Assembly (NCBI RefSeq): GCF_000092925.1 | Contig: NC_014217.1 | Coordinates: forward strand, 3,100,001 to 3,164,000 | Direction of reading: 5' to 3' | DNA: 64,000 bases | From: Ancylobacter novellus DSM 506 | GTDB taxonomy: Bacteria; Pseudomonadota; Alphaproteobacteria; Rhizobiales; Xanthobacteraceae | Shown: positions 4,628 to 25,539 of the stretch, in pieces | Numbering within the stretch: position 1 is the first letter of the stretch | How the letters are laid out: the number at the start of each line of letters is the position of its first letter | Translations under genes and position numbers: made by a program | Notes under the pieces: model-generated | The model's input: the letters and a program-made list of their open reading frames with translations, nothing else | What the model was told of the DNA's origin: nothing | The model's database searches: none

Positions 4628-5941
4628 TCAGTGCCCGCCGGCCGGAGCCGGCGCCAGGGTGATGCCGTTTTCCTTCGCCCATACCGCGTTGGCGGCGTGG
4701 TGCTTCACCAGCATCGGCCGCAGCACCAGCAGGGCGCAGAAGGCGGCGGAGAGGTCCATGGCGGCGACCGTGTAGAGCACGGACGACCAGGTGCCGGTGA
4801 GCTCCATCAGGATGTTGCCGAACGGGACAAGCAGCGCCGCCACGCCCTTGGCGCAGTAGAGCACGCCGTAGATCTTGGCGACGTTCTTGGTGCCGAAGGT
4901 GTCGGCGGTGGTGGCCGAGAACAGCGAGTACACTTCACCCCAGGCCAGGAACACCATGCCCGAGAGGATGAGGAACGCCCACGGATTGTGGCCGAAGGTG
5001 CCGAGCGCGACGATGCCGAGGCCTTCCATGGTGAAGGCGACGAACATGGTCTTCTCACGGCCGATATGGTCGGAGATCCAGCCGAACAGCGGGCGAGAGA
5101 TGCCGTTCAGGATGCGGTCGAGCATCAGCGCGAAGGGCAGAGCCGCCATGGTGAAGAAGTAAACGTTCACCTGGAAGTTCTTCACACCGAGGTCCTCGGC
5201 GATGACGCCGAGCTGGGCGACGGCCATCAGGCCGCCGGTGACGGTGCCGATGAACATGGCGCCGAGCACCCAGAACACCGGAGTGCGCAGGGCTTCCGGC
5301 AGGGTGTAGTCGCGGCGGGACTGGGCGACCTTGTCGGAGCCCTTCAGGTCCTTCGGCGGAGCCTTCAGGAACAGGGCGGCGATCATGATCACGCTGCCCT
5401 GGATGAGGCCGAAGAACCAGAAGGTCTCGGACACGCCCGAGGAGGCGAGCATGTTGGCGATCGGCAGGATGGTCAGCGCCGAACCGGCGCCGTAGCCGCC
5501 GGCGGTGAGGCCGACCGCGAGACCGCGCTTCTCGGGGAACCACTTGATCGCGGCGTTGATGCAGGTGGCATACACGCAGCCGACGCCGATGCCGCCGATG
5601 ATGGCGCCGACATAGTACATGGTCAGCGTGTCGGCATAGGAATTGATCATCCAGGACAGGCCCGTGAAGGCGCCGCCGACGAACACCATGACCCGCGGGC
5701 CGTACTTGTCGATGAAGTAGCCTTCGATCGGCGCCAGCCAGGTCTGCACCACCACGAAGATGGTGAAGGTGGTCTGGATCGCCGCGCGCGACCAGCCGAA
5801 TTCCTTGGTGATCTCGGGGACGAACAGGGTCCAGGCGTACTGGATGTTGGCAGCGGCGACCATGCAGACGATGCCGCAGATCAGCTGGATCCAGCGCAGA
5901 TTGTTGGTCGGCGCGTGGGCCGACGCGACGGATGTACTCAC
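4628..5941 (-). CDS. oxlT: Oxalate/formate antiporter OxlT-like, MFS family (paralog 1)
   Basis: A 437-residue major-facilitator protein with 12 predicted membrane segments, close throughout to the second copy at 6592-7890. Family hallmarks are WIQLICGIVCM...NIQYAWTLFVPEI, GYFIDKYGPR, GGIGVGCVYATCINAAIKWFP and SRPLFGWISDHIGRE. Oxalobacter OxlT exchanges oxalate for formate using a membrane Arg and Lys; an Arg is present in the eighth segment (DRILNGISR) and a Lys in the eleventh (LYCAKGVAAL), though I have not aligned them. I chose the GTG at 5941 because GGGAGAGGAG lies about ten bases upstream and the N-terminus then matches its paralog; a longer form would begin at 6013. A GntR-type operator and a terminator bracket the unit. 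Confidence 0.87.
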   Translation of the reverse strand: MSTSVASAHAPTNNLRWIQLICGIVCMVAAANIQYAWTLFVPEITKEFGWSRAAIQTTFTIFVVVQTWLAPIEGYFIDKYGPRVMVFVGGAFTGLSWMINSYADTLTMYYVGAIIGGIGVGCVYATCINAAIKWFPEKRGLAVGLTAGGYGAGSALTILPIANMLASSGVSETFWFFGLIQGSVIMIAALFLKAPPKDLKGSDKVAQSRRDYTLPEALRTPVFWVLGAMFIGTVTGGLMAVAQLGVIAEDLGVKNFQVNVYFFTMAALPFALMLDRILNGISRPLFGWISDHIGREKTMFVAFTMEGLGIVALGTFGHNPWAFLILSGMVFLAWGEVYSLFSATTADTFGTKNVAKIYGVLYCAKGVAALLVPFGNILMELTGTWSSVLYTVAAMDLSAAFCALLVLRPMLVKHHAANAVWAKENGITLAPAPAGGH

Positions 5942-6530
5942 GGGGGCGATCTCCTCTCCCAAATCTATCAAGCGCCGCGGATCGGCTTGTTGTTGCGGTC
6001 GCTCCGTCCGCACGGGACGGGCGCCGGCTTATCGTTGGCCGCGGGCGGCCTTTCTGCCTCCCGCGACGGCCGCTGGCGCGGCATGCTTTCCCAATAGGTT
6101 GATGCGGCTTCCGCCCCCGCGCCGGCACCGCGAGCTGTCCGGCTTTGCGTGTGACGCAGGGTTGCGGAACCGATCCGCTGAGACAGGATCATAATCGACA
6201 ATATTATGTATGCCAATTCCCCTTTATGACTCTTCGACAGCAACGTAAATTCAAAGTCGACGTCTAATTGTCACTTTTCAACGCTGATCGTTGCTAAAGA
6301 TAATTCCCTCTCGTCGGCACCTTCCCTTGCGCCTTTTCATGGAAGTCGAAGAGACGTTTAACGATGACGCTAAGTAATCGTAACGCATGGATGCCGGAGC
6401 ATTCGACCTGACGCCGGCATGGGCGTGACCATGACGTCCTCCCGCACCGCGTGTGAGAGCGACCGATTACGTTTTCAATTCTTCAGGATCGAAAGAGGAG
6501 GCAAGCGATTCGGCCGGTATCGCCACACCA
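5942..6530 (-). promoter_or_regulatory. oxlT1 upstream region with operator-like site at 6200-6214
   Basis: No credible gene lies in this stretch of nearly 600 bases. The part nearest oxlT1 is GC-rich leader; from about 6190 to 6410 it is AT-rich and probably holds the promoter. AATAT-TATGT-ATGCC at 6200-6214 matches the right half and spacing of the GGYAT-N5-ATRCC motif seen before other oxalate genes, with a degenerate left half; the wider right flank GTATGCCAATT is identical to that of the site at 9936-9950. Confidence 0.55.
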
Positions 6531-6591: not shown

Positions 6592-7890
6592 CTATTCGGC
6601 GGCCACCGTCCGGGCCGCGCCCTCGGCGGTGCGCTTGCCGTGCGAGGCCCGCAGCGGCTTCAGCACCACCAGCGCCATCACCGCGGCGACGATGTTCAGC
6701 GCGGCGGCGGTGAGGAACACCGCGTGCCAGCTGCCCGTCATCGTGGTGAGGATCGAGGTGAACGGCACGATCAGCGCCGCCGTGCCCTTGGCGGTGTAGA
6801 GCAGGCCGGCATTGGTGGTGGCGAACTTCGAGCCGAAGGCGTCGCCGCACATCGCCGGGAACAGCGAGTAGATCTCGCCCCAGGCGAAGAAGACGAGGCC
6901 GGTCAGGATGACGAACAGCACCGGGTTCTGGCCGAACACGCTCAGCGCGTAGATGCCGACGCCCTCGATGGCGAAGGCGACGAACATGGTGTTCTCGCGG
7001 CCGATCTGGTCCGACACCCAGCCGAAGAACGGGCGGGTGAGGCCGTTCAGCACGCGGTCGATGGCGGCGGCGAAGGTCAGCGCCGGCAGCGTGATGCCGA
7101 TCAGGCTCACCGGGATGTCGGCGATGCCGAAGTCCTTGGCGATCGGGCCGAGCTGGGCGGTCGCCATCAGGCCGCCGGCGGCCATCATGACGAACATCGC
7201 GTACATCACCCAGAACAGCGGGGTGGAGAGCATCTCCTTCGGCGCGAAGTCGCGGGCCGACTGCGCCACCTTGGTGGCGACGTTCACCGCGAAGGCCGCG
7301 ATCTGCTCCTTCTTCGGGGCGGCGAGGAACAGGGCGAGCACGGTGATGACGATGCCCTGGCCGATGCCGAAGTAGAAGAAGGCCGCCTCGTAGCCCTGAT
7401 TCTTGATCATGTTCTGGATCGGAATCACGGTCAGCGCCGAGCCCGCGCCGAAGCCGGCGGCGGTGATGCCGGCGGCGAGGCCGCGGCGATCGGGGAACCA
7501 CTTCAACGAATTGCCGACGCAGGTGCCGTAGACCGCGCCGGCGCCGATGCCGCCCAGCGCCGCGCCGACATAGAGCATGGTGAGCGTGGTGGCGTAGGAG
7601 TTGAGCACCCAGGCGAGGCCGCAGAGCACGCCGCCGAACAGCACCACGACGCGCGGGCCGTACTTGTCGACGAACCAGCCCTCGACCGGCACCAGCCAGG
7701 TCTCGGTGACGATGAAGATGGAGAAGGCCACCTGGATCGCCGCGCGATCCCAGCCATGGGTCTCCTGCATCGGATTGACGAAGAAGGTCCAGCCATACTG
7801 CATGTTGGCGATCATGCACATGCAGATGACGCCGAACACGAGCTGCAGCCAGCGCGTCTTGTTCACGGATGACGTTGCGGCAGATGTCAT
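6592..7890 (-). CDS. oxlT: Oxalate/formate antiporter OxlT-like, MFS family (paralog 2)
   Basis: A 432-residue 12-segment MFS transporter, clearly a paralog of the gene at 4628-5941 and in the same orientation. It shares WLQLVFGVICM, NMQYGWTFFVNPM, WFVDKYGPR, LKWFPDRRGLAAGITAAGFGAGSA, DRVLNGLTRPFFGWVSDQIGRE and the AKGTAAL segment carrying the candidate substrate-binding lysine. The ATG at 7888-7890 is preceded by CGAGGAT and starts MTSAATSS. It is divergent from gntR1, and the 540 bases between them contain an 18-bp perfect palindrome and two operator-like sites. The two copies may differ in direction, affinity or counter-ion (for example formate versus another dicarboxylate); sequence alone does not say. 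Confidence 0.87.
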   Translation of the reverse strand: MTSAATSSVNKTRWLQLVFGVICMCMIANMQYGWTFFVNPMQETHGWDRAAIQVAFSIFIVTETWLVPVEGWFVDKYGPRVVVLFGGVLCGLAWVLNSYATTLTMLYVGAALGGIGAGAVYGTCVGNSLKWFPDRRGLAAGITAAGFGAGSALTVIPIQNMIKNQGYEAAFFYFGIGQGIVITVLALFLAAPKKEQIAAFAVNVATKVAQSARDFAPKEMLSTPLFWVMYAMFVMMAAGGLMATAQLGPIAKDFGIADIPVSLIGITLPALTFAAAIDRVLNGLTRPFFGWVSDQIGRENTMFVAFAIEGVGIYALSVFGQNPVLFVILTGLVFFAWGEIYSLFPAMCGDAFGSKFATTNAGLLYTAKGTAALIVPFTSILTTMTGSWHAVFLTAAALNIVAAVMALVVLKPLRASHGKRTAEGAARTVAAE

Positions 7891-8022
7891 TTTATCCTCG
7901 AACGTTTCCCAACGTAATGAGTGTGGAAATCTTAGGTTGTTCTTGTTGAATGCACGTAGGCCACGCTGCACACGCAAGGGCAACGACCCGACATTGCGGC
8001 GACCATACTATGGTTTTTCGGT

Positions 8023-8431: not shown

Positions 8432-9133
8432 GTGGAAAGCGCCGACACCCAAACCCGACTGAACATTGCTCCGCTGGCCGCGAATACAAGCCTGCGGACC
8501 CTCGCCTACGATGCCATCAAGAAGGCCATCACCGAGATGGACATGTATGGCCAGGAGAGCGAGATCCGGCTCGACGAGCGCCAGCTCTCGCATGATCTCG
8601 GCGTCAGCCGCACGCCCATCCGCGAGGCGCTCACGGTGCTGGAGCAGGAAGGCTTCGTGCGCTCGGTGCCGCGCCGCGGCATCTTCGTGGTGCGCAAGTC
8701 CAAGAGCGAGATCATCGACATGATCATCGTCTGGGCGGCGCTCGAGAGCATGGCGGCGCGCCTCGCCGCCACCCGCGCCAGCGACCGCGACCTCGCCGAG
8801 CTGCGCGAGCTCTTCCACGATTTCGACGAGGAAGCGCCGGCCGAGCACATGAACGAGTACTCGAACGCCAATATCCGCTTCCACCAGACCATCATCCGGC
8901 TCTCGGGCTGCGAGATGATTGCGGAGATGACGGAGAACCTGTTCATCCATATCCGCGGCATCCGCGCCGTCTCCATCCGCCAGGAGAACCGCTCGGAGCG
9001 TTCGCTGCAGGAGCACCGGGGCATCATCGCCGCGCTCGTCGGGCGCGACGCCGATCTCGCCGAGCGGCTGGTGCGCGAGCATACGCTGGGCCTCGCCGCC
9101 CATGTGGAAAAGCACGGCCGCTTCCCGCTCTGA
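8432..9133 (+). CDS. FadR-subfamily (FCD) GntR transcriptional regulator 1
   Basis: A 233-residue regulator. The winged helix-turn-helix covers about residues 20-90, with RLDERQLSHDLGVSRTPIREALTVLEQEGFV and the wing RRGIFVV. The FCD ligand-binding domain follows, with conserved histidines in NIRFHQTIIRLSG, LFIHIRGIR and LQEHRGIIAAL that usually hold a metal contacting small carboxylates. It is divergent from oxlT2 and about half identical by eye to GntR2 at 9996-10721. The location suggests an oxalate- or formyl/oxalyl-CoA-related signal; this is inferred. The GTG at 8432 follows GAGGAAACGACCC; later starts would cut into the arm before the DNA-binding domain. Confidence 0.88.
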   Translation: MESADTQTRLNIAPLAANTSLRTLAYDAIKKAITEMDMYGQESEIRLDERQLSHDLGVSRTPIREALTVLEQEGFVRSVPRRGIFVVRKSKSEIIDMIIVWAALESMAARLAATRASDRDLAELRELFHDFDEEAPAEHMNEYSNANIRFHQTIIRLSGCEMIAEMTENLFIHIRGIRAVSIRQENRSERSLQEHRGIIAALVGRDADLAERLVREHTLGLAAHVEKHGRFPL

Positions 9134-9802: not shown

Positions 9803-9935
9803 CAACGAGAGGCGATGGAACGCGGATCGGCAGCTTGCATTGGTACGAAGCTACGCCCGCCGCGCCGGAACGCCCTTACGCTGAGGAAAAGGGAGCTCGA
9901 TCGTCCCTCTACCGGGACAACCGAATTGACATGTT

Positions 9936-9950
9936 GGTATTTGGTATGCC
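9936..9950. promoter_or_regulatory. GntR-type operator overlapping the gntR2 promoter
   Basis: GGTAT-TTGGT-ATGCC is a perfect match to GGYAT-N5-ATRCC, extended by TT before and AATTT after. A TTGACA hexamer at 9926-9931 directly precedes it, so a bound regulator would cover the space between -35 and -10. The gntR2 start is 46 bases downstream. Confidence 0.68.
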
Positions 9951-9995
9951 AATTTCCCGGAAATCCCCGGCGGAGAGCCCGCAGAGGACACTTCC

Positions 9996-10721
9996 GTGAG
10001 CAGCAAGGCAGTCGTGAGCAAGCGCTGGCAAGGCGGTGAGAATGGCCTGACCATCGAGCGCCTGCCGGCCAAGGAGAGCTTCAAGAGCAAGGCCTACGCC
10101 GCTCTCAAGGAAGCCATCACCAACATGAACATCTATGGCTCGAGCGAGCCGATGCTGCTCGACGAGCGGGATATTTCGGAGCGTCTCGGCGCAAGCCGGA
10201 CGCCCATCCGCGAGGCGGTCGCGATGCTGGAGCAGGAAGGCCTGCTCCGCGCGGTGCCCCGGCGGGGAATTATGGTGGTTCGCCGCTCCAAGCCGGAGAT
10301 CATCGAGATGATCGAGGCGTGGGCGGCACTGGAAAGCATGGCGGCTCGCCTCGCGACGCAACGCGCGAGCGACGAGGCGATCGCCGAGCTGAGGAGCTTG
10401 TTCAAGGAGTTCGATCTGTCCCGGATCGAGCGTGATCGGTGCGACGAATATTCGACGGCGAATATCGCGTTCCACCAGGCGCTGATCCGGCTGAGCGGCT
10501 CCAGCATGCTCGTCGCGATGACGGAAAACCTGTTCTTCCATGTACGGGCCATCCGCCATCGCACGATCTTCGAGATGGATAGGGCGCAGCGTTCGGCGGC
10601 CGACCATCTGGAGATCATCTCTGCTCTCGAGGCGCGGGACGCGGACCGCGCCGAGCGTCTGGTACGAGACCATACGCTCCGGCTGGCACGGCACGTCGAG
10701 AGCCACGTAGACCTAGATTAG
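9996..10721 (+). CDS. FadR-subfamily (FCD) GntR transcriptional regulator 2
   Basis: A 241-residue paralog of GntR1. DNA-binding part: MLLDERDISERLGASRTPIREAVAMLEQEGLLRAVPRRGIMVV. The FCD effector domain carries His in NIAFHQALIRLSG, LFFHVRAIRH and ADHLEIISAL. The GTG at 9996 follows AGAGGACACTTCC. It is the first gene before oxc, with only 42 bases between them, so it is probably the head of a gntR2-oxc-frc transcript and the likely direct regulator of oxalate catabolism. An operator-like site overlaps its own promoter, indicating autoregulation. Confidence 0.88.
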   Translation: MSSKAVVSKRWQGGENGLTIERLPAKESFKSKAYAALKEAITNMNIYGSSEPMLLDERDISERLGASRTPIREAVAMLEQEGLLRAVPRRGIMVVRRSKPEIIEMIEAWAALESMAARLATQRASDEAIAELRSLFKEFDLSRIERDRCDEYSTANIAFHQALIRLSGSSMLVAMTENLFFHVRAIRHRTIFEMDRAQRSAADHLEIISALEARDADRAERLVRDHTLRLARHVESHVDLD

Positions 10722-10763: not shown

Positions 10764-12503
10764 ATGTCCGCAGTCGCACAGGTAATCGACGTGAATGCTG
10801 GAGCCGAGGTCGAGCAGGAGCTCACCGACGGTTTCCACCTCGTCATCGACGCGCTGAAACTCAACGGTATCGAGACCATCTACGGCGTGCCCGGGATTCC
10901 GATCACGGATCTGGGCCGCATGGCGCAGGCGGAAGGCATCCGCGTCGTCTCGTTCCGCCACGAGCAGAACGCCGGCAACGCCGCCGCCATCGCCGGCTTC
11001 CTCACCAAGAAGCCGGGCATCTGCCTCACCGTTTCGGCGCCGGGCTTCCTCAACGGCCTGACCGCCCTGGCCAATGCCACCACCAATTGCTTCCCGATGA
11101 TCCTCATCTCGGGCTCCTCGGAGCGCGAGATCGTCGACCTGCAGCAGGGCGACTATGAGGAGATGGACCAGCTCGCCATCGCCAAGCCGCTCTGCAAGGC
11201 TGCCTTCCGCGTGCTGCACGCGCAGGACATCGGCATCGGTGTCGCCCGCGCCATCCGCGCCGCGGTCTCCGGCCGTCCGGGCGGCGTCTATCTCGACCTG
11301 CCGGCCAAGCTGTTCTCCCAGGTGATGGACGCGGCCGAAGGCACCAAGTCGCTGGTCAAGGTCATCGACGCCGCTCCCGAGCAGCTTCCGTCCCCGGCTG
11401 CGATCAAGCGCGCCCTCGACGTTCTGAAGTCGGCCAAGAAGCCCCTCATCATCCTCGGCAAGGGCGCGGCCTACGCGCAGGCCGACGAGGAGATCCGCTC
11501 CTTCGTCGAGACCTCCGGCATTCCGTTCCTGCCGATGTCCATGGCCAAGGGCATCCTGCCCGACACCCATCCGCTCTCGGCCGGCGCTGCGCGCTCGACC
11601 GTGCTGAAGGATGCGGACGTCGTCCTCTTGATCGGCGCGCGCCTCAACTGGCTGCTATCGCACGGCAAGGGCAAGACCTGGGGTGACGCGCCCAAGAAGT
11701 TCATCCAGGTCGACATCGAGCCGAAGGAGATGGACTCCAACGTCGAGATCGTCGCCCCGCTCGTCGGCGACATCGGCTCGGTCGTCGCGGCCCTGAACAA
11801 CGGCATCAAGTCCGGCTGGCAGGCCCCGGCCGCCGAGTGGACCGACGCAATCAACGCCCGCAAGGAGGTCAATATCTCCAAGATGGCCCAGCGCCTCTTG
11901 AAGAACTCGACCCCGATGGACTTCCACTCGGCGCTCGGCGCGCTGAAGCAGGTCATCAAGGAGCGTCCGGACGCCATCCTCGTCAACGAGGGCGCCAACA
12001 CGCTCGACCTCGCCCGCGGCGTCATCGACATGTACCAGCCGCGCAAGCGCCTGGACGTCGGCACCTGGGGCGTGATGGGCATCGGCATGGGCTTCGCCGT
12101 CGGCGCGGCGGTCGAGACCGGCAAGCCGGTGCTGGCGGTCGAGGGCGACTCGGCCTTCGGCTTCTCCGGCATGGAGGTGGAGACGATCTGCCGCTACAAC
12201 CTGCCGGTCACCGTTGTCATCTTCAACAATAACGGCATCTACCGCGGCACCGACACTGACCCGACCGGCCGCGATCCGGGCACCACCGTGTTCGTCCCGG
12301 GCAGCCGCTACGACAAGATGATGGAGGCCTTCGGCGGCGTCGGCTACCACGTCACCACGCCGGACGAGCTGAAGAAGGCCGTCGACGCGGCCATGGACTC
12401 GGGCAAGCCGACCCTCATCAACGCGGTGATCGACCCGGCGGCCGGCAGCGAGAGCGGCAACATCGGCAGCCTCAACCCGCAGAGCGTCGTGAAGAAGAAG
12501 TAA
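10764..12503 (+). CDS. oxc: Oxalyl-CoA decarboxylase
   Basis: A 579-residue thiamine-diphosphate enzyme that converts oxalyl-CoA to formyl-CoA and CO2. The pyrimidine domain contains [13 protein letters not shown] and the cofactor-activating Glu67 in RHEQNAG. The central domain follows, and the diphosphate domain has [13 protein letters not shown]...NNNGIY as the ThDP/magnesium motif. The C-terminal [10 protein letters not shown] matches the flexible lid known to close over the substrate in Oxalobacter Oxc. A strong ribosome site (GGGAGGGAATACGGG) precedes the ATG. It lies between gntR2 and the two frc genes; together Frc and Oxc form the cyclic oxalate-to-formate pathway. Confidence 0.97.
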
Positions 12504-12604: not shown

Positions 12605-13882
12605 ATGGGCAAGGCTTTGGACGGCGTTCGCGTCCTCGATTTCACCCATGTTCAGTCAGGCCCTACTTGCACGCAGCTTCTCGCGTGGTTCGGTGCCGAT
12701 GTGATCAAGGTAGAGCGCCCCGGCGAGGGCGACGTCACGCGTGCTCAGCTGCGCGACGTCCCCAACGCGGACAGCCTCTACTTCACCATGCTGAACGCCA
12801 ACAAGCGTTCCATAACGCTCGACACCAAGAACCCCGAGGGCAAGAAGGTCCTCGAGGAGCTGGTGAAAAGCTGCGACGTGATGGTGGAGAATTTCGCCCC
12901 CGGCGCCCTGGACCGCATGGGTTTCAGCTGGGAGCGCATCCAGGAGCTGAACCCGCGCATCATCCTCGCTTCGGTCAAGGGCTTCGGCCCCGGCCCGTTC
13001 GAGGACTGCAAGGTTTATGAGAACGTCGCCCAGTGCACCGGCGGCTCGGCCTCGACCACGGGCTTCCGCGACGGCTTTCCTCTCGTCACCGCCGCCCAGA
13101 TCGGCGATTCCGGCACCGGCCTGCACCTGGCGCTCGGCATCGTGACGGCGCTCTACCAGCGCACGCTCACCGGCCGCGGCCAGAAGGTGCTCTGCGCCAT
13201 GCAGGACGCGGTGCTGAACTTCTGCCGCGTCAAGCTGCGCGACCAGCAGCGCCTGGAGCGCGGCCCGCTGCGCGAATACAGCCAGTTCGGCGAGGGCATC
13301 CCCTTCGGCGATTCGGTGCCGCGCGCCGGCAACGATTCCGGCGGCGGCCAGCCGGGCCGCATCCTGAAGTGCAAGGGCTGGGAGACCGATCCCAACGCCT
13401 ATATCTACTTCATCACCCAGGGCCCGGTCTGGGACAAGATCTGCGACGTCATCCACGAGCCGGACTGGAAGACCGACCCGGCTTACGCGACGCCGGCGGC
13501 CCGCCTGCCGCACCTCAACGAGATCTTCACCCGCATCGAGGCGTGGACCATGGCCCACACCAAGTTCGAGGCGATGGAGATCCTCAACGAGCTCGACATC
13601 CCCTGCGGCCCGGTGCTGTCCATGAAGGAGATCGCCGAGGACCAGTCGCTCTACGCGACCGGCACGCTGGTCGAGGTCGACCATCCGACCCGCGGCAAGT
13701 ACCTGACCGTCGGCAATCCGATCAAGCTCTCCGACAACGACGTGCCGGTGGAGCGCTCGCCGCTGCTCGGCGAGCACACGGAAGAAATCCTCGCCGAGGT
13801 GCTCGGGCTTGGCGGCGACGAGATCGCCCGCATCAAGGCCTCGGGCGCCATCGGCCAGGCGGTCCGCCTCGCGGCGGAATGA
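12605..13882 (+). CDS. frc: Formyl-CoA:oxalate CoA-transferase, paralog 1
   Basis: A 425-residue class III CoA-transferase. The ATG at 12605 follows GAGAGGAACCCC. Conserved N-terminal block: [14 protein letters not shown] and [19 protein letters not shown]. The catalytic aspartate is Asp168 in [13 protein letters not shown] (Asp169 in the Oxalobacter enzyme), and a glycine-rich lid (SGGGQPG) is present. Residue 48 is Gln, as in E. coli YfdW, rather than Trp as in Oxalobacter FRC. It differs from paralog 2 by one deletion before the catalytic Asp and a longer C-terminus. Donor specificity (formyl-CoA, succinyl-CoA or other) is open. Confidence 0.92.
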
Positions 13883-14148
13883 GATTCGCGGCGCCGTGCG
13901 GCGGCGCCCGAAGGAGAAGACCCGCCGGGCAAGGGCATTCCCCTCGTCCGGCGGCCTGCATCCAGGGTGAACGAAAAGAAGGCGTGAATTCCGGAGTCGA
14001 TCACCACCTGGGAGTTGCCTCGCGTTCATGCGAACCGGGGCTTGGGGAGAAGGAAGTGTTTCCATCCGAGAGGGATGGAAATTCTCAATCCGGCGGCAGG
14101 GTGAGCCTCCGCCCGGACTGTTAACGCTTAGAAGGGAAGTCGACCGAG

Positions 14149-15399
14149 ATGTCTAAGCCGCTCGAAGGTATAAAGATCATCGATTTCACGCACGTCCAGG
14201 CCGGTCCGGCCTGCACGCAGCTCCTCGCCTGGTTCGGCGCCGATGTGATCAAGGTCGAGCGCCCCGGTGCGGGCGACGTCACGCGCAACCAGCTGCGCCA
14301 TGTGAAGGACGCGGACGCGCTCTACTTCACCATGCTGAACTCCAATAAGCGCTCGCTGACGCTCGACACCAAGACGGCGCAGGGCAAGGAAGTCCTGACC
14401 AAGCTGATCCAGGAATCGGACGTCATGGTCGAGAACTTCGGCCCCGGCGCCCTCGACCGCATGGGCTTCACCTGGGAGCACATCCAGTCGCTCAACCCGG
14501 GCATGATCCTCGCCTCGGTGAAGGGCTTCTCGGAAGGCCACGCCTATGAGGACCTGAAGGTCTACGAGAACGTCGCGCAGTGCGCGGGCGGCGCCGCCTC
14601 CACCACCGGCTTCTGGGATGGTCCGCCGACCGTTTCCGCCGCCGCTCTGGGCGACTCCAACACCGGCATGCACCTCGCCATCGGCATCCTCACGGCGCTG
14701 CATCAGAAGATCAAGACCGGCAAGGGCCAGAAGGTCGCCGTGTCCATGCAGGACTCGGTGCTCAACCTCTGCCGCGTCAAGCTGCGCGACCAGCAGCGCC
14801 TCGACGCGCTGGGCTATCTCGAAGAGTACCCGCAGTACCCGCACGGCGAGTTCTCCGACGTGGTGCCGCGTGGCGGCAACGCGGGCGGCGGCGGCCAGCC
14901 GGGCTGGGTGCTGAAGTGCAAGGGCTGGGAGACCGACCCGAACGCTTACATCTACTTCACCATCCAGGGCCATGCCTGGGCGCCGATCTGCAAGGCGCTG
15001 GGCAAGCCGGAGTGGATCGACGACCCGGCCTACAACACCGCCGAGGCGCGCCAGGACAAGATCTTCGACATCTTCGCTTTCATCGAGAGCTGGCTCGCCG
15101 ACAAGACGAAGTTCGAGGCCATCGACATCCTGCGCAAGTTCGACATCCCCTGCGCCCCGGTGCTGTCGATGAAGGAGATCGCCAACGACCCGTCGCTGCG
15201 CGCCAGCGGCACCGTGGTCGAGGTCGATCACCCCAAGCTCGGCAAGTACCTGACCGTCGGCTCGCCGATCAAGTTCTCGGACGTCACCGTCGAGGTCACC
15301 GCCTCGCCGCTGCTCGGCCAGCACACCAACGAAGTGCTCGCCCAGCTCGGCTACTCGCAGGAAGAAATCTCCGCGATGCACGACGCCAAGGCCGTTTGA
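14149..15399 (+). CDS. frc: Formyl-CoA:oxalate CoA-transferase, paralog 2
   Basis: At 416 residues this matches the length of E. coli YfdW. The catalytic residue is Asp169 in [13 protein letters not shown], residue 48 is Gln, and the glycine-rich lid AGGGGQPG is complete. Transfers CoA from formyl-CoA (or another donor) to oxalate in the cytoplasm. A 266-base spacer separates it from paralog 1, with GGAAGT before the ATG. It is the last gene of the row and is followed by a strong terminator at 15580. This copy looks the more canonical Frc; paralog 1 may have a different donor or simply add dosage. Confidence 0.94.
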
Positions 15400-15853: not shown

Positions 15854-16672
15854 TCACCTTCCTGAATAGCGCAGGGTCAGCCGCGCCGCGGCCTCGCGCA
15901 CCTGCGCGCCGAGGTCGGCGATGCGCTCGGGCGGCATGCGCACGGTCGGGGCCGAGATCGAGATCGCGCCCACCGGCTCGCGCCATTCGTCGAGCACCGC
16001 GGCGGCGACGCAGCGCATGCCGGGCGTGTGCTCCTCGTCGTCGATCGAGTAGCCGCGCGCGGCGATCTCGGCGAGGTCGGCCTGCAGCGCGCGCCGGCTC
16101 ACATGGGTATGCTCGGTGAAGCGCTGGAGCTGGTCGTCGCCGAGCCAGGCGCGCCGCGCCTCCGGGTTCATCGTCGCGAGGATCGCCTTGCCGCCACCCG
16201 AGGCGTGGATCGGCAGGTCGCCGCCGATGCGGAAGAAGGCACGCACCGCCGCATGGCTCTCGACCTGAGCGACGCAGATGAGGTGCGGCCCGTCGATCAG
16301 CGACAGGTTCACCGTCTCGTTCACACCGTGCGAGAGTTCACGCAGCAGCGCGCGGGCGATCTCCGGCAGCTTGCGGATGCGCAGATAGGCCGAGCCGACG
16401 CGGAACAGGCCGACGCCGACCATCCAGGAGCCGGTGGCGGCATCGTGTCCCACCAGCCCGCGCCGCTCCAGCGTGGTCAGCAGCCGGTGCACGGTCGAGG
16501 TCGGCAGTTCGGCGCTGCGCGCCAGCTCGCTGAGCGACAGGCCGTCGGAACGCGCCAGCACCTCCAGCAGCGCGATGGCGCGGTCGAGCGACTGCACCTC
16601 GCCGCCGGGCTCGGCGCCGCCGGTCGAGGACGGGCGGCCGCGGCGGCGCACGATCGGGACGGCCTGAGTCAT
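15854..16672 (-). CDS. IclR-family transcriptional regulator, AllR-like
   Basis: A 272-residue regulator. Residues about 26-85 form the IclR winged helix (QSLDRAIALLEVLARSDGLSLSELARSAELPTSTVHRLLTTLERRGLV is the span; key part LPTSTVHRLL). The C-terminal effector domain contains the conserved NLSLIDGPHLICVAQVES, ASGGGKAILA and GMRCVAAAVLDEWREPVGAISIS blocks. AllR of E. coli, of this family, represses gcl and is released by glyoxylate. This gene is divergent from gcl, and the gap between them holds two inverted repeats. A glyoxylate-responsive repressor of the gcl operon and itself is the natural reading; the effector is inferred. Confidence 0.88.
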   Translation of the reverse strand: MTQAVPIVRRRGRPSSTGGAEPGGEVQSLDRAIALLEVLARSDGLSLSELARSAELPTSTVHRLLTTLERRGLVGHDAATGSWMVGVGLFRVGSAYLRIRKLPEIARALLRELSHGVNETVNLSLIDGPHLICVAQVESHAAVRAFFRIGGDLPIHASGGGKAILATMNPEARRAWLGDDQLQRFTEHTHVSRRALQADLAEIAARGYSIDDEEHTPGMRCVAAAVLDEWREPVGAISISAPTVRMPPERIADLGAQVREAAARLTLRYSGR

Positions 16673-16860
16673 CCGAAGAACATCCTCCCAAGTCGCACGT
16701 TATCCCGTGCGCTTCGTCTCGTCGGGCCGCCCTGCCCGCCCGTCTCCGGCGCATGCGGACGGGTGGTGCGGACCTTGTACTAGCATAAAGGCGCATCCGC
16801 CGCTTTTTCGCAAATCAGAAAAGCATCCCATATTGCGGAAATCCGGGTGACGTGGCATGT

Positions 16861-16897
16861 TTTCCGCGCTTTCGGAAATTCATTCCGCATTGCGGAA
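16861..16897. promoter_or_regulatory. Tandem IclR-type operators between iclR and gcl
   Basis: Two inverted repeats lie close together: TTTCCG-N6-CGGAAA at 16861-16878 and TTCCGC-ATT-GCGGAA at 16883-16897. A further half-site, ATTGCGGAAAT, occurs near 16832. IclR-family proteins commonly bind paired palindromes of TTCC/GGAA arms. The 400-base gap (16673-17072) holds nothing else recognisable. Confidence 0.7.
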
Positions 16898-17072
16898 AGA
16901 ATTATGCCGCCCCGCAGCACGGCGCCAGGTCTTCGAACCTCGCGCCCGCATGCCCCCGGCGGCCGCCGGAACCGGAGATTTTGATCACGTCCGAAAGCCG
17001 GTGCGGAACGCCGCCAGCCCTGGAACGACAGGGCGACGCCCGCCGGCGACAACGACGTTAGGAGGAAGTGCC

Positions 17073-18839
17073 ATGGCCAAGATGCGTGCCGTCGACGCGG
17101 CGATCCGCGTTCTCGAGAAGGAAGGCGTCACCACCGCTTTCGGTGTCCCGGGCGCCGCGATCAACCCGCTCTATTCCGCGATGCGGGCCCACGGGAAGAC
17201 GCGCCACGTGCTGGCGCGTCACGTCGAGGCCGCCTCGCACATGGCCGAGGGCTACACCCGCGCCAAGGCCGGCAATATCGGCGTGTGCATCGGCACCTCC
17301 GGCCCGGCCGGCACCGACATGATCACCGGCCTGTACTCGGCCGCCGCGGATTCGATCCCGATCCTGTGCATCACCGGCCAGGCGCCGCGCGCACGCCTCT
17401 ACAAGGAAGACTTCCAGGCGATCGACATCGAGTCCATCGCCAAGCCGGTCGCCAAGTGGGCGGTGATGGTCCGCGAGCCCGCGCTGGTGCCTATGGTGTT
17501 CCAACAGGCCTTCCACGTCATGCGCTCGGGCCGCCCCGGCCCGGTGCTGATCGACCTGCCGATCGACGTCCAGCTGGCCGAGATCGAGTTCGACGAGGAC
17601 ACCTACGAGCCGCTGGCGGTCTACAAGCCGGCCGCGACCCGCAAGCAGGCCGAGAAGGCCATCGCCATGCTGAACGAGGCGGAGCGTCCGCTGATCGTCG
17701 CCGGCGGCGGCATCATCAACGCCGACGCCTCCGACAAGCTGGTGGAGTTCGCCGAACTCACCGGCGTGCCGGTCATCCCGACCCTGATGGGCTGGGGCAC
17801 TATTCCCGACGACCACGACCTGATGGCCGGCATGTGCGGCCTGCAGACCTCGCACCGCTACGGCAATGCCAACATGCTGGCGTCGGACTTCGTGTTCGGC
17901 ATCGGCAACCGCTGGGCGAACCGCCACACCGGCTCGGTCGATGTCTACACGAAGGGCCGCAAGTTCATCCATGTCGACATCGAGCCGACCCAGATCGGCC
18001 GCGTCTTCGGCCCGGATCTCGGCATCGTCTCGGACGCCGGCGCCGCGCTCGACCTCTTCATCGAGGTGGCCAGGGAATACAAGACCGCCGGCAAGCTGAA
18101 GGACCGCGGCGACTGGGCCAAGGAATGCCTCGGCCGCAAGAAGACCATGCTGCGCAAGACGCATTTCGACAACGTGCCGCTCAAGCCGCAGCGCGTCTAT
18201 GAGGAGATGAACGAGGCGTTCGGCCGCGACACCCGCTACGTCTCGACCATCGGCCTGTCGCAGATCGCCGGCGCGCAGATGCTGCACGTCTACAAGCCGC
18301 GCAACTGGATCAATTGCGGCCAGGCCGGCCCGCTCGGCTGGACCCTGCCCGCCGCCCTCGGCGTGCGCGCGGCCGACCCGGATGCAGAGATCGTGGCGCT
18401 GTCGGGCGACTACGACTTCCAGTTCCTCATCGAGGAGCTCGCGGTCGGCGCCCAGCACAAGCTGCCCTACATCCATGTGGTCGTGAACAACTCCTATCTG
18501 GGTCTGATCCGTCAGGCGCAGCGCGGCTTCAACATGGACTTCGAGGTCTCGCTCGCCTTCGACAACATCAATGCCGACGAGAATGCCGGCTATGGCGTCG
18601 ACCATGTGGCGGTGGCCGAGGGCCTCGGCTGCAAGGCGGTGCGCGTCTCCTCGCCCAACGAGTTCAAGGACGCCTTCGTCAAGGCCAAGGCGCTGATGAA
18701 GGAGCATCAGGTGCCGGTGGTGATGGAGTTCATCCTCGAGCGCGTCACCAACATCGCCATGGGCACCGAGATCGACGCGGTGAACGAGTTCGAGGAAGTC
18801 CTCGACCTGCCGCTGGAAGGCGCCGCCGCCAAGGCGTGA
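17073..18839 (+). CDS. gcl: Glyoxylate carboligase
   Basis: A 588-residue ThDP- and FAD-binding enzyme that joins two glyoxylates into tartronate semialdehyde and CO2. The ATG at 17073 has GGAGGAAG eight bases upstream. Diagnostic for Gcl is Val51 in [13 protein letters not shown], where nearly all other ThDP enzymes have the activating Glu; Oxc in the same window keeps it (RHEQNAG). ThDP motif: [15 protein letters not shown]...[12 protein letters not shown]. It opens the gcl-hyi-glxR row and is controlled by the adjacent IclR-type protein. Glyoxylate here would come from oxalyl-CoA reduction or purine breakdown. Confidence 0.97.
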
Positions 18840-19004: not shown

Positions 19005-19790
19005 ATGCCCCGTTTTGCCGCCAATCTCACCATGCTGTTCAACGAGGTGCCCTTCCTCGACCGGTTCGAGAAGGCCGCCGCCGCCGGGTTTGCCGGCGTG
19101 GAATATCTGTTTCCCTACGACTTCCCGGTCGAGGAGCTGGTCGGAAAGCTCAAGGCCAACGGCCTGACGCAGGTGCTGCACAACATGCCGGCCGGCAACT
19201 GGGGCGGCGGCGAGCGCGGCATCGCCATCCTGCCCGACCGCGTCGACGAGTTCCGCGCCGGCGTCGACAAGGCCATCACCTATGCGACCGCCCTCGGCGC
19301 GCCGCAGGTGAACATCCTCGCCGGCATCGCCCCCGCCGGGGTCGAGCGCGAGGTGCTGCACAAGACCTTCGTCGAGAACCTGAAATACGCCGCGCCGAAG
19401 GTGAAGGAAGCCGGCATCAAGCTGCTGATCGAGCCGATCAACACCCGCGACATTCCGGGCTTCTTCCTGAACTACACGAAGCAGGCGAAGGCGATCATCG
19501 AAGAGGTCGGCTCCGACAACCTCTTCATCCAGTACGACATCTACCACATGCAGATCATGGAAGGGGATCTCGCCCGCACCATCGAGGCGAACCTCGCTCT
19601 GATCCCGCACATCCAGCTCGCCGACAATCCGGGCCGCAACGAGCCCGGCACCGGCGAGATCAACTACGAGTTCCTGTTCCGCTTCCTCGATTCCATCGGC
19701 TACACCGGCTGGATCGGGTGCGAGTACAAGCCGAAGGGCGACACGGCGGCCGGCCTCGGCTGGCTGAAGACGCTCACCGGCGCGGCGTGA
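19005..19790 (+). CDS. hyi: Hydroxypyruvate isomerase
   Basis: A 261-residue TIM-barrel protein that interconverts hydroxypyruvate and tartronate semialdehyde. The start PRFAANLTMLFNEVPFLDRFEKAAAAGF and the motifs HNMPAGNWGGGERG, LLIEPIN (metal/catalytic Glu) and WIGCEYKPKG (second Glu) are typical of Hyi. The ATG follows TAGGAGCGGTCC. It is placed between gcl and glxR as in E. coli and many proteobacteria. The 165-base gap before it contains a terminator-like hairpin. Confidence 0.95.
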   Translation: MPRFAANLTMLFNEVPFLDRFEKAAAAGFAGVEYLFPYDFPVEELVGKLKANGLTQVLHNMPAGNWGGGERGIAILPDRVDEFRAGVDKAITYATALGAPQVNILAGIAPAGVEREVLHKTFVENLKYAAPKVKEAGIKLLIEPINTRDIPGFFLNYTKQAKAIIEEVGSDNLFIQYDIYHMQIMEGDLARTIEANLALIPHIQLADNPGRNEPGTGEINYEFLFRFLDSIGYTGWIGCEYKPKGDTAAGLGWLKTLTGAA

Positions 19791-19837: not shown

Positions 19838-20728
19838 ATGGCGAAGGTTGGATTTGTCGGTCTGGGGATCATGGGCAACCCGATGGCGGGCCACCTCATC
19901 GACGCGGGCCACACGCTCTATCTGTATGACATCAAGCCGGTGCCGGCGGAGCTGACGGGCAAGGGCGGCGTCGCCTGCGCCAACGGCACCGAGGTGGCGA
20001 AGAACGCCGACATCATCATCATCATGGTGCCGGACACCCCGCATGTGGGCGCCGCGCTGTTCGGCGAGGGCGGCATCGCCGCCGGCCTCACCCCCGGCAA
20101 GATCGTCGTCGACATGTCGTCGATCGCCCCGGTCGAGACCAAGGAATACGCCAAGAAGGTCAACGAGCTGGGCTGCGACTATCTCGACGCGCCGGTCTCC
20201 GGCGGCGAGGTCGGCGCCAAGGCCGCCTCGCTCACCATCATGGTCGGCGGCCCGGAAGGCGCCTTCGAGACGGTGAAGCCGCTCTTCGAGAAGATGGGCA
20301 AGAACATCACCCTCGTCGGCGGCAATGGCGACGGCCAGACCACCAAGGTGGCGAACCAGATCATCGTGGCGCTGACCATCCAGGCGGTCGGCGAGGCGCT
20401 GCTGTTCGCCTCCAAGGCGGGTGCCGACCCGGCCAAGGTGCGCCAGGCGCTGATGGGGGGCTTTGCCAATTCGCGCATCCTTGAGGTGCATGGCGAGCGC
20501 ATGGTGAAGCGGACCTTCAACCCGGGCTTCCGCATCGAGCTGCACCAGAAGGACCTGAACCTGGCGCTCAACGGCGCCCGCCAGCTGCAGATGTCGCTGC
20601 CGGCCACCGCGCTGGCGCAGCAGCTGTTCAGCGCCTGCGCCGCCAATGGCGGGGCGGCGTGGGACCACTCAGCTCTGGTCAAGGCGCTGGAAATGCTCGC
20701 AAATCACACCGTCGCGCCGGATGCGTGA
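19838..20728 (+). CDS. glxR: Tartronate semialdehyde reductase (2-hydroxy-3-oxopropionate reductase)
   Basis: A 296-residue member of the beta-hydroxyacid dehydrogenase family that reduces tartronate semialdehyde to D-glycerate with NAD(P)H. Residues 1-30 form the dinucleotide fold (KVGFVGLGIMGNPMAGHLIDAGH). The substrate loop DAPVSGGEVGAK and the catalytic lysine in GQTTKVANQ are present, as is the C-terminal KDLNLAL segment. It follows hyi by 47 bases and completes the glycerate pathway. Glycerate kinase, the next step, is not in the window. Confidence 0.95.
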   Translation: MAKVGFVGLGIMGNPMAGHLIDAGHTLYLYDIKPVPAELTGKGGVACANGTEVAKNADIIIIMVPDTPHVGAALFGEGGIAAGLTPGKIVVDMSSIAPVETKEYAKKVNELGCDYLDAPVSGGEVGAKAASLTIMVGGPEGAFETVKPLFEKMGKNITLVGGNGDGQTTKVANQIIVALTIQAVGEALLFASKAGADPAKVRQALMGGFANSRILEVHGERMVKRTFNPGFRIELHQKDLNLALNGARQLQMSLPATALAQQLFSACAANGGAAWDHSALVKALEMLANHTVAPDA

Positions 20729-20783: not shown

Positions 20784-21030
20784 AGCGTTTCTGGAAATAG
20801 TAAGCATTGCTGCCCCGGTAGTGGAATTCCGCTGCGGGGTAGTCTTTTGAGCGTCACGACGAACAATTGTTCTGGCCTATACACCGTGGACAAGCCGGCA
20901 TTTCCCGAAGTAACTTGTCGGACACGTCGCTAACACGCCCCGCGATGCCCGCGATGCGGCCCAACATGCGCGACGTATTATCACGCCCATGAACATCGCT
21001 CTTGACGAGGGCCTCAATCTGCCCAATCAT

Positions 21031-21045: not shown

Positions 21046-21096
21046 AAACAAAGTTCCGGACCTCGCGGGGGTGAGTCCGGACGAGGAGGGAGTCCA

Positions 21097-22074
21097 ATGA
21101 AGGTCTGCATCTACGGTGCCGGCGCGATCGGCGGTTATGTCGGCGTCCAGCTCAAGCGCGCGGGTGTCGACGTGAGCCTGGTGGCCCGCGGCGCACATCT
21201 CGAAGCCATGAAGCGCAACGGCCTCAAGCTGCTCATCGAGGATGAGGAGCGCGTCGAGCACATCCCGTGCTCCGACAACCCGGCCGAACTCGGCCCGCAG
21301 GACTATGTCATCGTCGCGCTGAAGGCCCATTCGGTGCCGGGCGTCGTCGACGCCATGCAGCCGCTGCTCGGCAACGACACGGCCGTCGTCACCGCGGTGA
21401 ACGGCGTGCCCTACTGGTACTACTACAAGCACGGCGACCAGCTCGAAGGCCGCACGCTGGAGAGCGTCGATCCGGGCGCCAAGCAGTGGAACGGCCTGCG
21501 CCCCGAGCGCGCCATCGGCTGCATCGTCTATCCGGCGACCGAAGTGGTCGAGCCGGGCGTCATCAAGCACGTCTATGGCGACAAGTTCCCGCTCGGCGAG
21601 CCCTCGGGCGAGATCACCGAGCGCGTGACCAAGCTTTCCGAGGCCTTCGCCGCCGGCGGCCTGCGCGCGCCCGTTCTGCCCAACATCCGCGACGAGATGT
21701 GGCTGAAGCTGTGGGGCAACCTCTGCTTCAACCCGATCAGCGCCCTCACCCACGCCACCCTCGACGTCATCGCTTCCGATCCGGGCACCCGCGCGGTCGC
21801 CAAGGCGATGATGCTGGAGGCGCAGGAGATCGCCGTGCAGTCCGGCGTGAACTTCCGCGTCGGCGTCGAGCGGCGCATCGACGGCGCTGGCGCGGTCGGC
21901 GCGCACAAGACCTCGATGCTGCAGGACCTCGAGCGCAACCGCGCCATGGAGATCGACCCGCTCGTCACCGTGGTGCAGGAGATGGGCAAGCTTGCCGGCA
22001 TCCCGACGCCGACAATCGACGTCGTGCTCTCCCTCGTCCGCCAGCGCGCGCAGATCGCCGGCTGCTACAACTGA
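21097..22074 (+). CDS. PanE/ApbA-family 2-ketoacid reductase, probable oxalyl-CoA reductase (PanE2-like)
   Basis: A 325-residue NADPH-type reductase. GAGAIG at residues 7-12 is the dinucleotide loop, and the C-terminal ketopantoate-reductase domain has a conserved Lys in EMWLKLWGNLCFNPISALT. A very strong ribosome site (GAGGAGGG) precedes the ATG. True PanE makes pantoate from ketopantoate and normally sits with pan genes. This one lies behind the oxalate and gcl genes and next to an oxalate-type operator. In Methylobacterium extorquens the paralog PanE2 reduces oxalyl-CoA to glyoxylate, and that role fits here exactly: it would connect Frc to Gcl. Fold is certain; the substrate is inferred. 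Confidence 0.75.
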   Translation: MKVCIYGAGAIGGYVGVQLKRAGVDVSLVARGAHLEAMKRNGLKLLIEDEERVEHIPCSDNPAELGPQDYVIVALKAHSVPGVVDAMQPLLGNDTAVVTAVNGVPYWYYYKHGDQLEGRTLESVDPGAKQWNGLRPERAIGCIVYPATEVVEPGVIKHVYGDKFPLGEPSGEITERVTKLSEAFAAGGLRAPVLPNIRDEMWLKLWGNLCFNPISALTHATLDVIASDPGTRAVAKAMMLEAQEIAVQSGVNFRVGVERRIDGAGAVGAHKTSMLQDLERNRAMEIDPLVTVVQEMGKLAGIPTPTIDVVLSLVRQRAQIAGCYN

Positions 22075-22959: not shown

Positions 22960-24158
<1,199 letters not shown>

Positions 24159-24159
<1 letters not shown>

Positions 24160-25055
24160 TGTCGGTTCTCATCAATAAAGACACCAAGATCATCACCCAG
24201 GGCTTCACCGGCAAGAACGGCACCTTCCACTCCGAGCAGGCGCTGGCCTATGGCTCGAAGGTGGTCGGCGGCACCTCGCCGGGCAAGGGCGGCTCGACCC
24301 ATCTCGGCCTGCCGGTGTTCGACACCGTCGCCGAGGCGCGCGAGAAGACCGGCGCCGACGCCTCGGTGGTCTACGTGCCGCCGCCGGGCGCGGCCGACGC
24401 CATCTGCGAGGCGATCGCGGCGGAGATCCCGCTCATCGTCTGCATCACCGAGGGCATCCCGGTGCTCGACATGGTGAAGGTGCGCCGGGCACTGGACGGC
24501 TCCAAGTCCCGCCTCGTCGGCCCGAACTGCCCCGGCATCGTCACCGCCGGCGAGTGCAAGATCGGCATCATGCCGGCCAACATCTTCCGCAAGGGCAATG
24601 TCGGCATCGTCTCGCGCTCGGGCACGCTGACCTATGAGGCGGTGTTCCAGACCTCGCAGGAGGGCCTCGGCCAGACCACCGCGGTCGGCATCGGCGGCGA
24701 TCCGGTCAAGGGCACCGAGTTCATCGACGTGCTCGAGCTGTTCCTCGCCGACGACGCCACCGAGTCGATCGTGATGATCGGCGAGATCGGCGGCTCGGCC
24801 GAGGAAGACGCGGCGCAGTTCCTCAAGGACGAGGCCAAGCGCGGCCGCAAGAAGCCGATGGTCGGCTTCATCGCCGGCCGCACCGCCCCTCCCGGCCGCC
24901 GCATGGGCCATGCCGGCGCCATCATCTCCGGCGGCAAGGGCGGCGCCGAGGACAAGATCGCGGCGATGGAAGCGGCCGGCATCGTGGTCTCGCCCTCGCC
25001 GGCGCGGCTCGGCAAGACGCTGATCGAAGTGCTGAACAAGCGCGTCGCCGCCTGA
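24159..25055 (+). CDS. sucD: Succinyl-CoA synthetase (ADP-forming) alpha subunit
   Basis: A 298-residue subunit. The start codon overlaps the sucC stop by one base (TGATG), a sign of tight co-translation. It has the CoA-binding N-terminus ([19 protein letters not shown]), the conserved [11 protein letters not shown] and [11 protein letters not shown] blocks, and the active-site phospho-histidine His251 in [10 protein letters not shown]. It carries the phosphoryl-transfer half of the enzyme whose other half is SucC. A strong terminator 28 bases behind it ends the panE-FAH-sucCD row. The same reservation about substrate (succinate, malate or oxalate) applies as for sucC. Confidence 0.92.
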
Positions 25056-25244: not shown

Positions 25245-25294
25245 GCGCGTAACTCCAATCGTCCGTGTTGCAGTGCAACGTAACGAATGTATCT

Positions 25295-25309
25295 GGTATG
25301 TGGTATACT
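25295..25309. promoter_or_regulatory. GntR-type operator-like site before the 42-residue membrane protein
   Basis: GGTAT-GTGGT-ATACT matches GGYAT-N5-ATRCC in eight of ten arm positions. A nearby GTTGCA-G-TGCAAC inverted repeat occurs at 25267-25279. The stretch 25245-25540 shows no other gene. Confidence 0.5.
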
Positions 25310-25539
25310 TAATATCAGATAGCGAGCCTGCACGAGGCGCATGGCCTGACGTCTTCTAAGCGGACGCCAGCAACAGACATGGATTGCGGAAGGACGGCCA
25401 GCCAGCGCATGGGCCGGCGCCCGACGCTGGAGGAGATGAGTAAAGAGGGGCGGAGCTTTCGCGAGTGGGGATGACCACGCGGGACAGTCGGGAGCCCGGT
25501 CCGCAACGAGCTTGTCTCGGCGATAGGCGCCGTCTCGCC

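Follow-up and report, generated by a model that had tools for sequence, protein, structure and literature searches.

The panE gene of the Ancylobacter oxalate island is predicted to encode an NADPH-dependent oxalyl-CoA reductase (acylating glyoxylate dehydrogenase, EC 1.2.1.17) built on the PanE/ApbA scaffold, a reading to which we assign a probability of about 0.89. This function had been proposed in the initial annotation of the gene and is supported by phylogeny, by the gene's neighbourhood, by regulation in common with oxc, and by an orthologue of 73% identity that matches ApbA2, a protein for which a genetic test on oxalate exists. The enzyme type itself is already known as PanE2/ApbA2, reportedly since the 2012 work of Schneider et al. 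on PanE2 of Methylobacterium extorquens AM1 (cited in PMC3720670), and the Ancylobacter protein is a further member of it.

Within the window, by which we mean the whole 64-kb stretch of DNA that was analysed, panE is an intact open reading frame without internal stops. It belongs to an island comprised of two MFS transporter genes, two GntR/FCD regulator genes, a cupin gene, oxc, two copies of frc, an IclR regulator gene, gcl, hyi, glxR and panE itself (Table 1). As the initial annotation had it, panE is preceded by gcl, hyi and glxR, each of whose products exceeds an NCBIfam cut-off; downstream, 11 bp separate it from an FAH-family gene, behind which lie sucC and sucD. The two frc paralogues (12605–15399) are adjacent and both exceed the formyl-CoA transferase cut-off, and differing CoA donors are possible for them. 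Between the IclR gene and gcl (16673–17066) lie several TTCCGCA/TGCGGAA-like repeats, perhaps IclR sites.

Table 1. Genes and control elements of the oxalate island, in positions of the window.
Feature	Position	Strand	Basis or remark
MFS transporter (OxlT-like by context)	4628..6013	-	profile search
MFS transporter	6592..7983	-	69% identical to gene annotated oxlT in Azospirillum
Second GntR/FCD regulator	8432..9133	+	profile search
Perfect operator copy before GntR-oxc-frc unit	9934..9952	+	0 mismatches to TTGGYAT-N5-ATRCCAA
GntR/FCD regulator, probable operator reader (inferred)	9996..10721	+	profile search
oxc, oxalyl-CoA decarboxylase	10764..12503	+	NCBIfam
frc, first copy, formyl-CoA:oxalate CoA-transferase	12605..13882	+	NCBIfam
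frc, second copy	14149..15399	+	NCBIfam
IclR-family regulator, divergent from gcl	15854..16672	-	profile search
gcl, glyoxylate carboligase	17073..18839	+	NCBIfam; start codon taken from sequence
hyi, hydroxypyruvate isomerase / 2-oxo-tetronate isomerase family	19005..19790	+	NCBIfam
glxR, 2-hydroxy-3-oxopropionate reductase	19838..20728	+	NCBIfam
Sigma-70-like promoter of panE, TTGACG-17 nt-AATCAT	21002..21030	+	pattern search: 1 found vs 0.2 expected
Operator before panE, ATGGCATACAAAATACCAA	21029..21047	+	1 mismatch to TTGGYAT-N5-ATRCCAA; overlaps end of -10 box
Shine-Dalgarno AGGAGG	21084..21089	+	7 nt before ATG
panE, oxalyl-CoA reductase, PanE2/ApbA2 type (predicted)	21097..22074	+	325 aa; family model named 2-dehydropantoate 2-reductase
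FAH-family protein, 257 aa	22086..22859	+	profile search; 11 bp after panE
sucC, succinate-CoA ligase beta	22960..24159	+	NCBIfam; genome's only sucC match at E 0.01
sucD, succinate-CoA ligase alpha	24159..25055	+	named by neighbourhood and 49% match to annotated sucD in locus L129

The gap between glxR and panE is 368 bp long and contains a sigma-70-like promoter and an operator, which suggests that panE does not merely close the gcl operon; from this promoter-like site it would open a transcription unit of its own, panE–FAH, possibly extending through sucCD. The operator had been described as a perfect oxalate-type site. It is indeed present and common to the oxc unit, but it is perfect only before GntR–oxc–frc and carries one mismatch before panE, whereas the very strong ribosome site claimed for the gene is borne out by its AGGAGG at 7 nt from the ATG. 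Because the operator overlaps the end of the -10 box, its placement is as expected of a repressor site, and because it is common to panE and the oxc unit, panE belongs with oxc regulation and not with the gcl operon alone. We infer that a GntR protein binds this operator and responds to an inducer.

At up to three mismatches the 64-kb window holds seven matches to the operator against 1.69 expected, and none of 100 shuffles reaches seven. Among 21 Ancylobacter-type loci, the window itself included, the longest invariant upstream run consists of 17 operator bases, ATGGCATACAAAATACC, and the next-longest (7 and 6 bases) are GGAGGGA, CTTGAC and CGACGT; GGAGGGA lies in the ribosome site and CTTGAC in the promoter, both invariant in 21/21. 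Of the 81 loci with enough upstream DNA, 46 have an operator with at most three mismatches no farther than 350 bp upstream; such a site occurs in 39 of 737 control windows. Beyond the Ancylobacter-type loci the site is present in 25 of 60, at no more than 100 bp from the start in 21 of these. Two overlapping weak operator-like sites with three mismatches also follow sucD (25293–25318); we rejected them as the operator of a further gene, there being no convincing gene behind them.

Both PanE/ApbA Pfam domains, and with them the two-domain fold, are present in the panE product. It scores 526 bits on NCBIfam NF005089, a 2-dehydropantoate 2-reductase subfamily with a cut-off of 223, and only 45.7 bits on the PanE equivalog model NF005087, whose cut-off of 351 it does not reach and on which E. 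coli PanE scores 524.6. The two proteins share their fold and, in the alignment, the Lys and Glu that we take to be catalytic (Lys176 and Glu256 of E. coli PanE) and the Asn and Ser that presumably contact the substrate (Asn98 and Ser244), but all 26 proteins aligned from the wider family retain the same four residues, which are therefore not discriminating. E. coli PanE differs from the Ancylobacter protein in its low identity (22%), in belonging to another NCBIfam equivalog and in lacking an insert of about 22 residues that follows the Asn-Gly motif of the latter. Arg31 of the panE product aligns with Arg31 of E. coli PanE, a residue with a role in NADPH preference, and this alignment suggests that the Ancylobacter protein would also prefer NADPH.

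The structure model of the product (pLDDT 94.8) has ketopantoate reductases as its top structural matches, and the matches place D-mandelate dehydrogenases on the same fold. One matched ketopantoate reductase, 5ayv, was by its title solved with CoA and 2-oxopantoate, providing a precedent for CoA binding on the PanE/ApbA fold. PDB entry 3ghy from Ralstonia solanacearum is by title a 'putative' ketopantoate reductase that names no tested substrate, and it is not among the proteins of the tree described below.

To place the protein among characterised enzymes, we used Methylobacterium bullatum as a stand-in for M. extorquens PanE2 and Cupriavidus necator strain A5-1 as a stand-in for ApbA2 of C. 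necator H16; the panE product is 73% identical to the A5-1 orthologue and 47% identical to the M. bullatum homologue. According to passages in PMC7486775, a search with M. extorquens PanE2 led to H16 ApbA2, which is 51% identical to it and is encoded near frc–oxc. The A5-1 and M. bullatum proteins are 49.7% identical, close to the published value, while two other A5-1 ApbA_C paralogues reach 26–28%, so the A5-1 orthologue is very probably ApbA2, and ApbA2 falls through it into the same clade as the Ancylobacter protein. In a tree of 55 chosen proteins, this clade A (27 rows, including the window and Cupriavidus) has a support of 97/96 and joins its sister, the Methylobacterium clade B (9 rows, 46–50% identical to the Ancylobacter protein), at 98/97, with E. 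coli PanE, proteins of 31–41% identity and PanE-like paralogues all outside. The protein therefore does not cluster with E. coli PanE, the sole named ketopantoate reductase included, in a tree that has long branches, above all that of E. coli PanE. As to the precedent on which the initial annotation relied, PMC8411744 describes PanE2 as characterised and used in vitro to reduce oxalyl-CoA to glyoxylate; of the tested enzymes, however, ApbA2 is the closest to the Ancylobacter protein, and the Methylobacterium homologues form a sister clade.

Gene neighbourhoods were compared for the best 80 of 492 relatives, all at least 70% identical, with gene calls made at set score limits; the closest relatives among these 80 are from Ancylobacter and Starkeya. 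At these best 80 of 492 loci, oxc, frc or gcl is near panE in 68, a close FAH gene in 54 and sucC in 27, and panB or panC in none. Such oxalate neighbours are seen again and again in Ancylobacter, Xanthobacter, Rhodopseudomonas, Bradyrhizobium, Cupriavidus and Phyllobacterium; a Phyllobacterium plasmid carries panE–FAH–regulator, sucD–sucC–frc–TPP enzyme and oxlT as a single block. The genes oxc, frc and gcl, along with OxlT-like genes, are all absent from 11 of the 80 loci; 10 of these loci are short or end less than 1.1 kb upstream of panE, and the exception (L041) is neither and carries sucCD. The same four kinds of gene are also missing near L145, L159 and L161, three of another five clade-A loci, and near all five clade-B loci from the family, three of which have an FAH gene. 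One family genome (G058) holds both a clade-A (L145) and a clade-B (L144) reductase gene, the FAH gene adjoining the clade-B copy. On a Rhodobacteraceae plasmid (L126, 6472–8981), a clade-A reductase gene overlaps an AMP-binding ligase gene behind an ABC transporter, in a stretch without frc or oxc, an arrangement that perhaps reflects ATP-driven oxalate activation, or another substrate.

The A5-1 gene has frc, OxlT-like, FAH and GntR genes nearby, as in Ancylobacter, and the M. bullatum homologue, of the same subfamily and with the same insert, adjoins OxlT-like and FAH genes. In Cupriavidus, however, the reductase gene and a GntR gene are placed together upstream of frc, whereas in Ancylobacter it has its own promoter-like site and lies between glxR and FAH–sucCD. 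The fate of the product would also differ, as PanE2 of M. extorquens feeds the serine cycle, in contrast to Gcl in Ancylobacter. A literature search combining oxalate, oxalyl-CoA and 2-dehydropantoate 2-reductase gave a single match, which concerned a mycobacterial small RNA.

In the pathway that we propose, Frc would transfer CoA to oxalate, and the resulting oxalyl-CoA would enter one of two branches. By decarboxylation, Oxc would turn it into formyl-CoA, which goes back into the Frc cycle, with formate providing reducing power, while the panE reductase would convert it to glyoxylate and free CoA, the glyoxylate then passing to glycerate via Gcl, Hyi and GlxR. Through the operator that also precedes oxc, panE would be switched together with oxalate decarboxylation. 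Since the reductase would release free CoA instead of formyl-CoA, the Frc cycle would need another CoA donor, for which the simplest candidate is succinyl-CoA from the neighbouring sucCD, used by one of the two Frc copies. The accompanying claim that the island would serve energy alone without the reductase proves too strong, as passages in PMC7486775 report that an apbA2 deletion in C. necator H16 raises the doubling time on oxalate from 6.5 h to 10 h but still permits growth.

A second question is whether the protein also reduces ketopantoate. In the genome of 4,765,023 bases, panE (3.12 Mb) is far from both panB (1.10 Mb) and panC (1.55 Mb), consistent with the earlier remark that no pan genes are near it. 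The panE product is the genome's only ApbA_C protein above cut-off. A second ApbA_C match (1.51 Mb) was rejected as PanE at 13.2 bits, below cut-off, as was a second ApbA match (2.94 Mb, 41 bits), whose frame reads by motif as GpsA, presumably the glycerol-3-phosphate dehydrogenase. Three other Ancylobacter genomes likewise have a single ApbA_C protein each, the panE orthologue, and the reductase (at least 47% identity), present in 49 of 100 family genomes, is the only ApbA_C in 12 of the 49. Together with the retained substrate-binding residues of E. coli PanE and the presence of panB and panC, these genomes would fit a protein that reduces both oxalyl-CoA and ketopantoate, for want of any other PanE. 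We nevertheless regard such a double role as unlikely. No ApbA_C match at E 0.001 is found in 7 of the 100 family genomes, six of them at least 97% complete, and all seven have panB and panC, so this lineage can do without PanE and another enzyme can serve; moreover, the insert after the Asn-Gly motif would alter the pocket region. That no other panE exists in the genome, which the initial annotation had named as a refuting outcome, is therefore true but not diagnostic.

Rhodopseudomonas pentothenatexigens, which, as its name says, needs pantothenate, was considered as a natural test of pantothenate supply. It has panB, panC and a panE orthologue and lacks one ApbA_C paralogue (about 80–90 bits) that, matched by score, is present in 7/7 other Rhodopseudomonas searched, the five that were placed falling in one clade. 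We dropped this test, as three of these paralogues that we aligned have no equivalents of Asn180 and Asn184 and, by score, a more PanE-like paralogue is kept. The alternative ketopantoate reducer is perhaps IlvC, by analogy with Corynebacterium glutamicum, where IlvC is reported to be the only ketopantoate reductase (cited in passages of PMC4353338), a precedent that also argues against the double role.

It is improbable that the same enzyme works mainly in reverse, converting excess glyoxylate, such as that derived from glycolate, to oxalyl-CoA for Oxc and thence to CO2. Passages in PMC7486775 describe this as a secondary route in C. necator when the glycerate pathway is deleted, but the growth defect on oxalate reported there shows the reductive direction, and the importer-like MFS genes, frc, gcl and oxc-type operator of the island suggest oxalate as the input. 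Activity on another small 2-oxo acid, such as glyoxylate or hydroxypyruvate, would make the protein a PanE-fold reductase akin to the D-2-hydroxyacid dehydrogenases. Although D-mandelate dehydrogenases share that fold and PanE annotations are known to mislead (passages in PMC4353338), we find this highly improbable, as the protein groups with the ApbA2 orthologue and the Methylobacterium homologues, and hydroxypyruvate and tartronate semialdehyde are already served by Hyi and GlxR. We give least credence to the protein being a ketopantoate reductase and nothing else, with its gene in the oxalate island by accident, since the name and score of NF005089 and the lack of another PanE in the genome are set against the low score on the E. 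coli PanE equivalog, 22% identity to that enzyme, oxalate neighbours in six genera and the operator common to oxc.

If panE encodes an oxalyl-CoA reductase, the FAH-family gene behind it may belong to the same pathway. Close relatives of its product occur in 38 of 100 family genomes, at 58–100% identity and at least 343 bits, and a gap separates them from the rest (at most 43% and 168 bits). All 38 genomes have the reductase, 11 have the reductase alone and none of the 51 genomes without reductase, among which we counted one with a 104-residue piece of it (G026), has the close FAH relative (Fisher p 5e-18 over the 100 family genomes, kinship ignored). The distance from the FAH gene to the nearest reductase gene is at most 400 bp in 24 of the 38 and at most 20 kb in 7 more; it is greater in 2, and in 5 the two are on different contigs. 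Relatives of the protein in the PDB are named acylpyruvase, decarboxylase and isomerase, and a literature search found no work joining fumarylacetoacetate hydrolase, oxalate and formyl-CoA transferase. Given that in the 100 family genomes the FAH gene occurs only with the reductase, and that it also lies beside clade-B reductases (in M. bullatum and in three of five family loci), its product probably acts before Gcl and other routes diverge, and its substrate is probably oxalate, oxalyl-CoA, glyoxylate or a by-product.

The island sucCD (22960–25055) holds the only sucC match in the genome and therefore probably also serves the TCA cycle. In Afipia, Propylenella, Cupriavidus metallidurans and Phyllobacterium loci, too, sucCD is close to the reductase gene or to frc, and in the island it may provide CoA for activating oxalate. 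According to passages in PMC3720670, however, succinyl-CoA gave no oxalyl-CoA with YfdE or UctC, which speaks against this idea for that type of transferase. We see about even odds that oxalyl-CoA reduction works as a fixed module, with an FAH-family enzyme that has gone unrecognised as one component and the island sucCD giving succinyl-CoA to Frc to make up for the CoA released by the reductase.

The FAH gene is the freshest lead from this analysis, and FAH and sucCD mark two concrete gaps in the pathway, while genomes in which the panE reductase is the sole PanE-type protein pose the question of how ketopantoate gets reduced. If the predicted function holds, the database name 2-dehydropantoate 2-reductase, as applied to this clade, conceals a key step by which soil bacteria assimilate oxalate, and renaming at the level of the clade would allow oxalate assimilators to be separated from pure oxalate oxidisers in genomes.
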